Shown one piece after another: positions 12,378 through 48,814 of a stretch of DNA of 64,000 nt. Location: NCBI RefSeq assembly GCF_017551775.1, contig NZ_JAFZKX010000017.1:1-64000 (forward strand), given 5' to 3'. A program made the position numbers and the translations under genes. The stretch is from Fibrobacter sp. GTDB lineage: Bacteria; Fibrobacterota; Fibrobacteria; Fibrobacterales; Fibrobacteraceae. How positions within the stretch are numbered: position 1 is the stretch's first letter; each line of letters begins with the position of its first letter. The notes beneath the pieces were generated by a model. The model ran no database searches. It saw only the letters and a list, made by a program, of their open reading frames with translations, and was not told the DNA's origin.

Positions 12378-12382
12378 TTTCG

Positions 12383-12453
12383 TTGAGCTACCAGGATTCG
12401 AACCTAGACAAACAGAGTCAGAATCTGTTGTGCTACCGTTACACCATAGCTCA
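12383..12453 (-). tRNA. tRNA-Gln (anticodon CTG)
   Basis: The minus strand gives a full cloverleaf. The acceptor arm is TGAGCTA paired with TAGCTCA, the D-arm contains AACGGTAGC, and the anticodon stem ACAGA/TCTGT encloses loop TTCTGAC with anticodon CTG. The T-arm carries GGTTCGAATCC. The U1-A72 acceptor pair is typical of tRNA-Gln. The discriminator is A and the CCA end is not encoded. It reads codon CAG. Confidence 0.95.
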
Positions 12454-12506: not shown

Positions 12507-13892
12507 TTATTTTGCAGATTTCGGGAGTGCCGGCGGGGTGTAGGTCATCCCCTGCCATTCGAGGTCGTCACCCTTCGGCAGGTTCACGAACGTGACCACC
12601 ACATACTCATCGACAGGAGTATCCGCAGCCTGTAGCGTCGAAATAACCTTCGTATCGCCGGAATAGAGCAGGAGTTCCTGTTCGCCCGAGGGCATCTCGT
12701 TGATTTTCAAAGAGTTGTAAGTCACCCCGCGAACGAAGTGCGCCGTTCCCTTTGCGCCAACCACCACGCTGTTCACCATGAGCGACTGCGTGGAATCGTT
12801 CGGGCCGATGACCAGGGCGATCGTGCTGACGAGTCCCGACGAGGGAGTCAGGTCAACGGTTCCCACATCCAGCGTGTCTTCCAGACCCGCGACTTCGGAG
12901 GCCATCACGTAACGGCTGAGTCCCATCATCACGGAATCACCTGCTTCTGCACGGAATTCCACGCGGAAGCTGTCGTAAGGAACTTCGGCCGGAACGGGGA
13001 GCCACCAGCGTCCGTCACTGTCCGTCACCGTCTGTGCCCGGAACACGGAGGAATCCCCGACAAAATCAAACCCGTAGATATCCGTAATCGCCATGACCTC
13101 GATGCCCGAGCAGACCCTGCCGGAATCGCAGTTCACCTGACCGGAAATCCTAGCGCGGCTCTTGCCATCGCCGTTCTTTTCCTTGATAAGAGTATCGACA
13201 TCAAACTCGGTGCTCCAGAAGAACGGGCCCACATCGAGCGTGCCGCCCGCATCCACCTCGATGGAATCCATGCTCCACACGCGGTAGATGAGACTATCAG
13301 CCACGCCGGAATCCTGCAGCTTGGCGACCATCTGCGGGTCACCCGGGCAGAACCCGAACCACCAGGAACCAGCCGGAATGAGCATGGAGAACGAATCCTT
13401 CGCGAAGACGTTCTGCACAAAGGGCATGCCCGGCATGTACACCAAGAAGTGAGACCCGACCTCGACCGCAGGCTCGGACTCGCGATCGTAGTAGAGTACG
13501 CTCTCGAAATGAGCGGCCTTCTCGAGCTTGATGTCTTCAAGGCTCTCGGCAGCCACCACGCGGGGCAGGTAAGAAATTTCTTCGGCGCTCTCGTCGATGA
13601 CCGCAAGCTGGAAGGTATCGGCGATAGCGGAATCGAACGCGAACACGCCCGCCGTATCGGTCTTCACCTCAACGAACTCGGGAACGCCATTCGTTTCATC
13701 CTTGGAATAAACACGCGACATGCGCACGACGACAGAATCCGCGCGCGTCCCGTCGGAACGCTTCACGAGCCCAGTCACCGACGCCGTCATCATGTTCTCG
13801 GTATCGGTCGCCGTACCGCCAACGTCCTTGCCGCCGGTACAGGCCAAAAGTAAAGCACCGCAAGCCATGACCATGGTCAAAGAGTATTTCAT
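12507..13892 (-). CDS. Lipoprotein with carboxypeptidase-regulatory-like repeats, partner of the TIGR02147 regulator
   Basis: A 461-residue lipoprotein: lipobox LLAC (Cys18), then a carboxypeptidase-regulatory-like beta-sandwich (ASVTGLVKRSDGT... with TDTAGVFAFD near 80-90). A middle beta-rich part follows, and then a second sandwich-like unit (ISGQVNCDSG... with VTDSDGRWWLPVP near 290). Its ATG overlaps the TGA of the TIGR02147 gene in an ATGA junction, so the two are translated from one message. In Fibrobacter, TIGR02147 proteins are often found next to predicted exported proteins; a sensor or target relationship is inferred, not shown. No catalytic motif is visible. Confidence 0.78.
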   Translation of the reverse strand: MKYSLTMVMACGALLLACTGGKDVGGTATDTENMMTASVTGLVKRSDGTRADSVVVRMSRVYSKDETNGVPEFVEVKTDTAGVFAFDSAIADTFQLAVIDESAEEISYLPRVVAAESLEDIKLEKAAHFESVLYYDRESEPAVEVGSHFLVYMPGMPFVQNVFAKDSFSMLIPAGSWWFGFCPGDPQMVAKLQDSGVADSLIYRVWSMDSIEVDAGGTLDVGPFFWSTEFDVDTLIKEKNGDGKSRARISGQVNCDSGRVCSGIEVMAITDIYGFDFVGDSSVFRAQTVTDSDGRWWLPVPAEVPYDSFRVEFRAEAGDSVMMGLSRYVMASEVAGLEDTLDVGTVDLTPSSGLVSTIALVIGPNDSTQSLMVNSVVVGAKGTAHFVRGVTYNSLKINEMPSGEQELLLYSGDTKVISTLQAADTPVDEYVVVTFVNLPKGDDLEWQGMTYTPPALPKSAK

Positions 13893-14743
13893 TTCGCGTC
13901 CTCCCCGTCCTTACCGGACTTGGCTTCCTTCTCCTTGCTGAGAGGGAAAAATTGAACGTTCAACTCACACACCATGGTTTCTCCGCTATCCGACCGCACA
14001 ATGTCCAGCACCTCCTTGCGGAACACGTCGATCTTGTTGATGATGCGTTCGAGCCCTTCGGCGGACACGCTCATCGTAGTACAAGATACATTTCTTCGTT
14101 CGGTGCTGTAGTGGTCCAGAGCGCCTTTTGCAAGGTCAATCATCTGTTTCTGGAACTGGTGGCCAAAAAGCGGGGCGATTTCGCGGCCGCTCGATATGGT
14201 CTTGTTTACGGAGCGGTAGAAGCCGTCTTCGGCGAGGTCAATAAGCCCGAGGTCGAGGAGCAGCTGGATGGCCTGCTTCGCCTGCGGGAGCGTAATCTTC
14301 GGGTTCAAGAACAGAGCCACTTCCTGGATGTTCTTTTCGTTTATATCGAGTACAGAAAGAGATTCACGAACGGCAACATAATACCACTTGCTGTAGTACT
14401 CCTGCTGGTTCTTGGTGAGCGTCTTGACGGTTCGCGGCAAAAGCGCCGACATCTGGTCGAATATCTGCTGCTTGGACGCAGGCGTCGTCGCATGGGTGAA
14501 ATCCACCATGAGGCTGAAGTAGCGGCCCTCGCGTTCATTCAAACCCAGGGCGGCGATAAACTTCGGGAGCATCTGCGGCGTAAGCGATTTGCGGCCGCGA
14601 ATAAGATCGAGGTAAAGTCCAGACGACGAATACCCCGCCTTCTTCGCGAAGGATCGGTACGAGAAATAACGCTGCACGGACTTTCTGTACTCGTAGTAGT
14701 CCTGCAGGTATTTTCTGTAGTTGTAATAGGCGTAGACGTTCAT
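13889..14743 (-). CDS. TIGR02147 family protein, probable transcription regulator
   Basis: A 284-residue cytoplasmic protein of the TIGR02147 family, a paralogous group that is expanded in Fibrobacter. The start MNVYAYYNYRKYLQDYYEYRK is typical. Residues about 28-70 (SYRSFAKKAGYSSSG..., LIRGRKSLTPQML, KFIAALGL) look like a helix-turn-helix of the XRE kind. The rest is helical, with a conserved-looking FFPLSKE near the C-terminus and a charged Lys/Glu tail. No Shine-Dalgarno is seen. Upstream are three GTGTTCCC repeats that could be its own operators. It is co-expressed with the lipoprotein downstream by a 4-nt overlap. DNA binding is inferred from the helix pattern. Confidence 0.88.
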   Translation of the reverse strand: MNVYAYYNYRKYLQDYYEYRKSVQRYFSYRSFAKKAGYSSSGLYLDLIRGRKSLTPQMLPKFIAALGLNEREGRYFSLMVDFTHATTPASKQQIFDQMSALLPRTVKTLTKNQQEYYSKWYYVAVRESLSVLDINEKNIQEVALFLNPKITLPQAKQAIQLLLDLGLIDLAEDGFYRSVNKTISSGREIAPLFGHQFQKQMIDLAKGALDHYSTERRNVSCTTMSVSAEGLERIINKIDVFRKEVLDIVRSDSGETMVCELNVQFFPLSKEKEAKSGKDGEDAK

Positions 14744-14773
14744 TATATTCTAAAAATAATTTTTTATTTTCTT

Positions 14774-14911
14774 GGGAACACCCCTGTTTTCCAAAAATTT
14801 GCAAAAAATCACGAATTTTCAAAGAAAACGGTAAAAAAGAACACTTGGGGAACACTTTTTATAAAAAAGGTATACCCTTTTGCGAAAAAATTGTCTACTT
14901 TTAGGGAACAC
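14774..14911 (-). promoter_or_regulatory. Three GTGTTCCC direct repeats upstream of the TIGR02147 gene
   Basis: GTGTTCCC (minus strand) occurs at 14774-14781, 14848-14855 and 14904-14911, with an extra GTGTTC at 14839-14844. All lie in the same orientation in an AT-rich segment between 31 and 168 nt upstream of the ATG. Repetition within one regulatory region suggests binding sites, most simply for the adjacent regulator. Confidence 0.5.
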
Positions 14912-14926
14912 CCAATCCCATCCCTC

Positions 14927-14963
14927 GGACCTTCGCTGATACTCCCAGCGAAGGTCCTTTTTT
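14927..14963 (+). terminator. Strong intrinsic terminator with no obvious plus-strand gene
   Basis: GGACCTTCGCT and AGCGAAGGTCC form a perfect 11-bp stem around a 9-nt loop, followed by TTTTTT on the plus strand. The minus-strand side has no T run. The gene upstream on the left runs the other way, so any transcript ended here must start inside the 14744-14926 regulatory region. Confidence 0.85.
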
Positions 14964-14966
14964 AGA

Positions 14967-15007
14967 CCGCTCGCGCTACGTTTATCATACCGTTCGCGCT
15001 ACGTTTA
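14967..15007. repeat. Two tandem copies of an 18-nt GC-rich unit
   Basis: CCGCTCGCGCTACGTTTA at 14967-14984 and CCGTTCGCGCTACGTTTA at 14990-15007 differ at one position and have a 23-nt period. They follow directly after the orphan terminator. Confidence 0.6.
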
Positions 15008-15215
15008 GGGATTTAAATTCCTCCGGGAGGCGCCAGTTCAGCGTTTTCATGGCTTGCGTGTTACATTTTCGTATCGTCCGTGCAACATTTTGGGGGCTAA
15101 ATTGTTACGGCATGCACTTGTTCGCACCCCTGGAAACCCCGCGGGGAGGGCTTGGGACAAAAGGCGGAATCTTTTGTTACATAAGTTTTACGTCCAAATT
15201 TGTCACACTTTTTTC
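15008..15215. other. Non-coding stretch with short GC palindromes
   Basis: No supported gene. The region holds small palindromes (CCTCCGGGAGG, CCCCGCGGGG) and becomes AT-rich towards the hydrolase-like gene. One short open frame crosses it, but it lacks a ribosome site and looks accidental. Confidence 0.4.
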
Positions 15216-47572: not shown

Positions 47573-48814
47573 TTAAAAGTATGTGCGAACAAGATCCTTG
47601 AGCCACTGTAAGCCCTTCTTGACGGAGACCGTAAGCTGTTTCCCCGTCTCGTACTTCTTGTTCTCGCTGCGCTGGCGCGCCGCATAATGCAATAGACCGA
47701 TACCCGTCGCGTACGAAGGCTTGCGGAATGCATCCTGAATTCCGCTGACGCCCTTCGGGCGACCGATACGTACCGGTTTCTCGAAAACCTTCTCGGCAAT
47801 CTCGTCGATACCGTCAAGAGCGCAGCACCCGCCGGTAAGCACGATGCCTCCATTGATGAGGCCGACAATCCCGTGCTTTTCGAGATCCTTCTTCAGGAGC
47901 TTGAAGATTTCTTCGACACGGGCGGTAATCACGCGGGCAAGCAAATTGCGCGAGCACAGAACGTCTCCGCGTTCACCGACACCGGGAACCGGGAACGTCT
48001 CGTCCGCATTGAGGTTGGTAATCTTGCACGTACCGTATTTCTTCTTGATTTCTTCGGCCTTCGAAAGCGAGATAGGCACCTTCAGGCACTTGCTGATATC
48101 GCTCGTGATGCTGTTGCCCGCGATGTCGAGCGACGCGGTATAGCGCAGCGATTCACCCACGAAAACGGCGACATCGGCGGTACCTGCGCCCACGTCCACG
48201 AGGGCGACGCCCAGTTCCTTTTCATCGGCGGTGAGCACGGCGTATGCGGCGGCAAGAGGTTCCCAAACAAACTCGACGGTATGGAGACCGGCGCTACGCA
48301 CGCACTTGTCCAGGTTCTGGATAGCGCTCGGGCGTGAGGTGACCACCTGAACTTCCACACCGAGGCGGCGTCCGTTGAGCCCCTTCGGATTCCTGATACC
48401 CGTCTGGTCGTCAAGAGTGTATTCACCCGGGAACACGTGAATAATCTGGCCTGCGGACTCGGGAATGGTGCTAGCCTGATCCTTCACCATCTCGATATCC
48501 TGGCTGCGGACTTCGCCGGTCGGGAGCGTAATCAGCCCCTTGTAATTGACGGCGGAGACATGCATTCCCGCAATGCCCACGTACACATCGTGGACATCCA
48601 CTCCGGTAATAGATTCGACAGTCTGTGCGGCCTGCTTCAGCATTTCGACCACATGGTCGAACTCGTCGGCATTGGTCAGCGGGAAATCGCCGCATTCCAG
48701 CACGCGCACGGAATCTCCGTTCGCCACTCCCGCGAACAGATTGATTTTTGAGGCACCGATATCCAACCCGAATATCAGATCTTCTTTCCTTATTTCATTT
48801 CTCGGTTCATCCAT
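47573..48814 (-). CDS. ftsA: Cell division protein FtsA
   Basis: FtsA is the actin-like membrane tether of FtsZ. The 413-residue protein starts MDEPRNEIRKEDLIFGLDIGASK, with phosphate-binding GLDIGASKINLF and LVDVGAGTADVAVF. It ends in the amphipathic helix KKGLQWLKDLVRTYF that attaches to the membrane. ATG 48814 overlaps the ftsQ stop by 8 nt and has GAGG at ideal spacing; a GTG two codons earlier is less likely. Confidence 0.96.
   Translation of the reverse strand: MDEPRNEIRKEDLIFGLDIGASKINLFAGVANGDSVRVLECGDFPLTNADEFDHVVEMLKQAAQTVESITGVDVHDVYVGIAGMHVSAVNYKGLITLPTGEVRSQDIEMVKDQASTIPESAGQIIHVFPGEYTLDDQTGIRNPKGLNGRRLGVEVQVVTSRPSAIQNLDKCVRSAGLHTVEFVWEPLAAAYAVLTADEKELGVALVDVGAGTADVAVFVGESLRYTASLDIAGNSITSDISKCLKVPISLSKAEEIKKKYGTCKITNLNADETFPVPGVGERGDVLCSRNLLARVITARVEEIFKLLKKDLEKHGIVGLINGGIVLTGGCCALDGIDEIAEKVFEKPVRIGRPKGVSGIQDAFRKPSYATGIGLLHYAARQRSENKKYETGKQLTVSVKKGLQWLKDLVRTYF

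Follow-up and report, generated by a model that had tools for sequence, protein, structure and literature searches.

A TIGR02147 regulator–lipoprotein operon of Fibrobacter with conserved upstream boxes and a putative divergent small RNA, one of many candidate autoregulated cassettes

Fibrobacter is a major rumen cellulose degrader in which little is known of gene regulation, and recognisable regulators were described as scarce near the cellulases in the genome paper of F. succinogenes S85 (PMC3079729). The TIGR02147/DUF4423 family (Fsuc_second) is found in 157 of 168 Fibrobacterota genomes. The literature searched, with subscription journals outside its scope, contained no functional account of TIGR02147, and DUF4423 was met as an incidental mention in a Bdellovibrio proteome (PMC12546842). 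The window analysed here, a 64,000-nt stretch of a Fibrobacter sp. contig, contains one such gene, followed by a lipoprotein gene and preceded by short repeated boxes (Table 1). This arrangement raises the question of whether cytoplasmic regulator, exported partner and repeated operator form a self-contained autoregulated module, as a sequence-only reading of the locus had proposed. The coupled lipoprotein and operator-like boxes of that proposal stand; what it missed is a divergent putative small RNA (sRNA) at the most distal box.

The gene pair and its upstream boxes

The regulator matches NCBIfam TIGR02147 with 347 bits (cut-off 50) over model positions 2–271 of 272, upholding its earlier assignment to the family, and Pfam DUF4423 with 98 bits, while a weak match to HTH_3 (E 0.044) falls below the cut-off. 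Its closest named match, at 100%, is in the F. succinogenes MAG RUG11683. An AF2 model (pLDDT 79, pTM 0.54) has an XRE-like HTH N-terminus (residues ~9–84, with predicted HTH helices at 29–36 and 42–48), a predicted winged-HTH-like middle and a long helical C-terminus. Foldseek matched the N-terminus to XRE HTH folds with a probability of 0.94–0.96 over ~75 residues, and returned partial HTH matches only, with no whole-fold match in the PDB.

The start codon of the lipoprotein gene lies inside the ATGA at the end of the regulator gene, confirming the reported junction as a 4-bp overlap. Orthologues of the lipoprotein occur in 78 of 80 genus genomes; in an alignment of 34, Cys18 of the predicted export signal (...GALLLAC) is invariant, as is, in core lipoprotein orthologues, a G-T-x-T-x-T-x-N motif directly after this lipid cysteine. 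The AF2 model (pLDDT 83) is a chain of several predicted beta-sandwich domains. Foldseek matched it best to pilin-like stalk proteins, with low TM-scores, and a match to CarboxypepD_reg is sub-threshold; the model is compatible with a structural or adhesive role at the surface. A tRNA-Gln (CTG) gene lies just downstream on the same strand, at 12382–12453.

The two proteins might instead constitute an envelope-sensing pair, with the lipoprotein sensing a surface condition and controlling the regulator. Near-universal coupling and the conserved post-cysteine motif would suit such a role, but no membrane segment is obvious in the regulator model while the lipoprotein is predicted to be exported, the operon encodes no transducing protein, and the stalk-like beta-sandwich model is equally well explained by a structural or adhesive product. 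This reading is considered improbable. In NCBIfam and Pfam profile searches, neither protein had a significant match to a sigma or anti-sigma (FecR-like) domain.

Table 1. Features of the regulator–lipoprotein locus (window positions)
Feature	Position	Strand	Remarks
Lipoprotein partner	12507..13892	-	461 aa; lipobox ...LLLAC then GGTATDTEN
TIGR02147/DUF4423 regulator	13889..14743	-	284 aa; ends ...GAAATGA
Predicted -10-like element TATTTTTA (TAnnTTTR)	14751..14758	-	7 nt before regulator ATG
Proximal box P, GTGTTCCC	14774..14781	-	-35 position of regulator promoter; conserved 83/83
Middle box M2, GTGTTCTT	14837..14844	-	M1–M2 distance 11 bp in 83/83
Middle box M1, GTGTTCCC	14848..14855	-	AAAGTGTTC nearly unchanged across 83 orthologues
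sRNA predicted -10-like element TACTTTTA (TAnnTTTR)	14896..14903	+	TAnnTT there in 81/83 orthologues
Distal box D, GTGTTCCC	14904..14911	-	TGGGTGTTC invariant 83/83; + strand = sRNA 5' end
Putative sRNA, ~58 nt	14904..14963	+	GGGAACACCCAATCCCATCCCTCGG, terminator hairpin and U-run
sRNA terminator hairpin	14927..14957	+	terminator scan; T6 next, 14958–14963

Upstream of the regulator, the three identical, like-oriented copies of GTGTTCCC that had been described are indeed present (minus strand, 14774, 14848 and 14904), and the partial copy is M2, with GTGTTC at 14839–14844. A fourth copy lies far off at 48429, and a window-wide count of four is ordinary, being reached in 13 of 100 shuffles. Three copies of an 8-mer with at least four G/C in a 250-bp upstream region are uncommon: this occurred in one of 5000 Markov shuffles and upstream of one of 100 other genes, and, among the 31 TIGR02147 genes of this genome, upstream of no other. 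Genome-wide, GTGTTCCC occurs 116 times in 3.2 Mb (68 forward, 48 reverse) against 81 for a reversed-pattern control, so it is no global motif, and its use as a genome-wide regulon motif was rejected, the copies being scattered. The proposal had been exposed to the 8-mer being equally common elsewhere; its clustering is not, as no other places among the 100 listed are within 150 bp of each other.

Conservation across orthologues is far stronger evidence for an operator than these counts. In 83 orthologous upstream regions, 69 from Fibrobacter and 14 belonging to five further genera in the family, all four GTGTTC-type boxes (D, M1, M2 and P) are kept in every locus, with RTGTTC occurring 3.77 times per region against 0.12 expected, and the DNA between them drifts in sequence and length. 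It is this conservation that bears out their operator-like character. The consensus is invariant at D and reads AAAGTGTTCNC at M1 and GTGTTCCCA at P. A short minus-strand peptide, MGLGVP, spanning the conserved element was discarded: its frame is lost after the element and its synonymous positions are fixed, which indicates selection at the nucleotide level.

Spacing is constrained as well. Beyond the exact 11 bp between M1 and M2, D–M1 distances fall into two classes, 55–57 or 64–67 bp, one helical turn apart, and M1–P distances of 31–32, 62–64, 73–74, 83–85, 94 or 105 bp, close to 3, 6, 7, 8, 9 and 10 turns, account for 73 of 83 loci, the other 10 being off-phase. A formal phasing test on distinct values gave p 0.0004 for D–M1 and a weak p 0.04 for M1–P, both approximate because the loci are phylogenetically related. 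A more distant regulator (68% identical; L196, from a MAG of an uncultured Fibrobacteres bacterium) retains the 11-bp pair and a AGTGTTCTC box near its start, even though the sRNA can hardly be recognised there. In six loci (L042, L045, L054, L056, L058 and L064), an additional GTTC-type box ~12–15 bp upstream of M1 extends the tandem array.

Downstream of the proximal box, TAnnTTT is found after 10–24 nt in 76 of 83 orthologues, placing a predicted promoter ~14 bp before the ATG; the regulator mRNA is probably leaderless or nearly so.

A putative small RNA at the distal box

On the plus strand, predicted elements provide the putative sRNA with its own promoter and an intrinsic terminator. Its start coincides with box D, and its C-rich 5' end is near-invariant. 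A 21-mer, GGAACACCCAATCCCATCCCT, allowing up to two mismatches, occurs exactly once per genome in 76 of 80 genus genomes, in none of which its reversed control was found; in the four genomes without it the core lipoprotein is missing or only 36–39% identical. In the 11-bp stem, 8 of 11 pairs show compensatory changes and 96.5% of cells are paired; the covariation score is 0.446 against 0.208 +/- 0.016 for shuffled alignments. A covariance model (R1) scores 80 bits at the window locus and matches in five further genera of the family (E 1e-7 to 1e-14), where in 14 of 14 genomes the match adjoins a TIGR02147 regulator with the same boxes; outside the family it has no convincing match. No Rfam family reached its gathering score, the best being rnk_leader with 21–25 bits against 50, and literature searches found no sRNA reported for the phylum Fibrobacterota. 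The putative ~58-nt sRNA would be a previously undescribed, highly conserved gene.

Alternatively, the plus-strand element may be no RNA gene; GGGATGGGATTGGG would then serve as operator DNA, with the hairpin blocking transcription between neighbours. The overlap of the distal box with the supposed 5' end is what such an arrangement would produce. It accounts poorly for the presence on a single strand of a -10-like element, a 5' segment that never varies, a compensated hairpin and a U-run, for the immediate divergence of orthologues past the U-run, and for the lack of any plus-strand gene just upstream that would need a terminator. An RNA gene is preferred, and its absence is judged rather unlikely.

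No sRNA targets emerged among the regulator and lipoprotein start regions, and the idea that the sRNA targets the starts of paralogues or lipoprotein genes in general was rejected, there being no excess over controls. Mimicry of 5S rRNA was likewise set aside (best alignment score 11, against 8.3 +/- 1.6 for shuffled sequences).

Beyond the hairpin, window positions 14958–15011 carry a 23-nt tandem repeat (ACCGCTCGCGCTACG), and relatives (L032–L059) have other repeat-like stretches in the same place, such as GCGTTATAGGCC and AAGCTTGCTTGGACATGACC; that in L047 breaks the terminator hairpin. These look like mobile intergenic repeats.

Paralogous cassettes and their own boxes

The Fibrobacter genome to which the window belongs (3.2 Mb, 114 contigs) encodes 31 TIGR02147 genes. 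In nearly all of the 30 loci read, a lipobox gene lies within a few bases, often overlapping, so that the coupling seen in the window extends to nearly all paralogues. Many partners, very different in sequence, share by eye an (A/S)GGTTEExNxIA-like motif shortly after the lipid cysteine, which could be a sorting or surface-export signal. Five cassettes (L005, L006, L007, L020 and L028) are clustered in ~17 kb (C12:2172-18594, a contig of G000), where several partners carry the AGVSQKGPFVKG motif; tandem duplication is probable for this cluster.

It had been anticipated that there would be many such pairs, each with its own operator, and the upstream regions are in keeping with this for candidate operators. 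For direct matches within the 250 bp upstream of the 31 genes, at a 68–76 bp spacing chosen after an unrestricted scan had been seen, the mean was 14.4 within genes (self) and 10.5 between genes (non-self), which none of 20000 permutations reached (p<1e-4). The unrestricted best direct repeat per region gave 18.1 against 16.5, diluted by unrelated repeats. The offset profile within genes peaks at 70–72 and 20–22 bp (7 and 2 turns), and these peaks are absent from between-gene and control-gene profiles. The paralogue boxes share a layout, with copies 70–74 bp apart, and differ in sequence: CATGTTCT (L005), TTTGTATCATG (L018), GTTGCATA (L021), TTGTTTCATA (L022), TGTATAGTATTT (L023) and CGTATCATTC (L024). 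Most of the other paralogues have one proximal copy and one or two distal copies; a plain threefold 8-mer, as seen in the window, is not typical of them. The layout is not universal, about a third of paralogues having no clear box pair (e.g. L002, L003, L004, L019, L030 and P31).

The spacing signal is confirmed by independent orthologue groups, the 83 loci described above and 29 loci of the L018 group. In the latter, both copies of TGTATCAT are kept in 25 of 29 loci, 73–74 bp apart, and GTGTTC is absent from this group. Several paralogues (L021, L022, L024 and L007) combine a single proximal copy with an inverted distal pair (e.g. TATGCAACAAGGCGTTGCATA). The element TATATTTG occurs in 9 of 31 paralogue upstream regions and in 1 of 100 control genes. 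With TAnnTTTR so near the ATG, many TIGR02147 mRNAs should be leaderless.

Box type tracks the residues of the predicted recognition helix. Across 22 paralogues, for which some boxes were picked by eye, box distance correlates with recognition-helix distance after whole-protein distance is removed (partial r 0.31, p 0.0015). KY(V/I), in which a tyrosine follows LK, is found in six helices, and every one of them goes with a box that has TT at the same position; the three SPN helices go with boxes lacking TCAT. The helices paired with GTGTTCCC and TGTATCAT are SSGLYLDLIRGR and SPVFLKLVCDGK. This co-variation of box and helix strongly suggests autoregulation.

It also bears on the possibility that another, global regulator or an ECF sigma factor binds the boxes, the TIGR02147 gene being merely a target. 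The 116 genomic copies of GTGTTCCC would suit such a regulator, and the complement of every full box, GGGAACAC, contains GGAAC, the usual core of ECF -35 elements. Yet the copies elsewhere are unclustered among the places listed. The paralogue boxes are unrelated in sequence, share one layout and track the recognition helices of their own regulators, a pattern that one common regulator would not produce. As -35 elements, moreover, the boxes would point away from the regulator and misfit the sRNA start; the ECF reading was rejected on this orientation and on the paralogue boxes, and binding by another regulator of either kind is considered quite improbable.

A proposed mechanism and its relation to known systems

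The reading preferred here, and thought fairly likely, is that the operon regulates itself locally and has two divergent outputs, regulator plus lipoprotein and sRNA, and that it is set among parallel cassettes with diverged operators. The TIGR02147 protein would bind GTGTTCYC boxes through its XRE-like recognition helix, occupying P at its own -35, the tandem M1 and M2 one turn apart, and D at the sRNA start; this binding, and any ligand that governs it, we infer. Bound proteins could touch where the copies lie on one face of the helix, probably by looping or bending of the A/T-rich DNA between the copies, and through such contacts regulator plus lipoprotein and sRNA would be controlled together. 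Repression is slightly favoured, at about even odds, since the boxes cover a -35 and a +1, and class-II-like activation of the regulator's own promoter is given a somewhat smaller chance. The sRNA, if expressed, probably acts in trans by base pairing through its invariant C-rich single-stranded 5' end. Action in cis, in which the sRNA would pair with RNA that contains GTGTTCCC and lies ahead of the regulator, is very unlikely: its 5' end can pair with the P box and this regulator's start region forms the strongest duplex of 31 (-22.3 kcal/mol), but that complementarity is the P box itself, upstream of the predicted mRNA start, and pairing with the coding mRNA does not exceed that of shuffled seeds.

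The other TIGR02147 genes would be parallel cassettes, many with a diverged operator matching a diverged recognition helix, and such matching would leave them largely insulated from one another. A bolder extension, regarded as doubtful, envisages some thirty insulated regulator–lipoprotein cassettes across a Fibrobacteraceae genome, their specificity code written in co-diverged operators and helices, and one family-core cassette whose sRNA coordinates the envelope or the other cassettes.

A large family, so far a name without a regulatory role in the literature searched, and matched over its full length by the regulator described here, thereby gains candidate operators, an sRNA neighbour and a testable role. 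The paralogues offer a natural set of diverged regulator–operator pairs in which to study how cross-talk between paralogous regulators is avoided, and a conserved sRNA candidate is added to the phylum Fibrobacterota.

Several known systems share parts of this arrangement. Lambda CI-like XRE autoregulators use several operators, palindromic dimer sites and a divergent promoter pair. The present locus resembles them in its XRE-like HTH, its cooperative-looking sites in helical phase, one at the regulator's own -35, and its divergent promoters; it differs in that the boxes are short direct repeats and not palindromic (some paralogues have an inverted distal pair) and that the C-terminal part is DUF4423, the relationship being an HTH-level structural match only. 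In OxyR/OxyS, a local regulator is accompanied by a divergently encoded sRNA, and here too the two genes diverge from a control region that they share, whereas the sequence, the ~58-nt RNA length and the regulator family are unrelated, and the RNA matches no Rfam family. A parallel at the genome scale is offered by the SusCD-type and surface-lipoprotein operon arrays of Bacteroidota, in which many cassettes each combine a local regulator with a surface lipoprotein. The TIGR02147 cassettes show the same parallel organisation; unlike those arrays, the operon described here has no ECF sigma, anti-sigma or TonB-dependent transporter, and relies on a one-component HTH regulator whose gene overlaps that of the lipoprotein.
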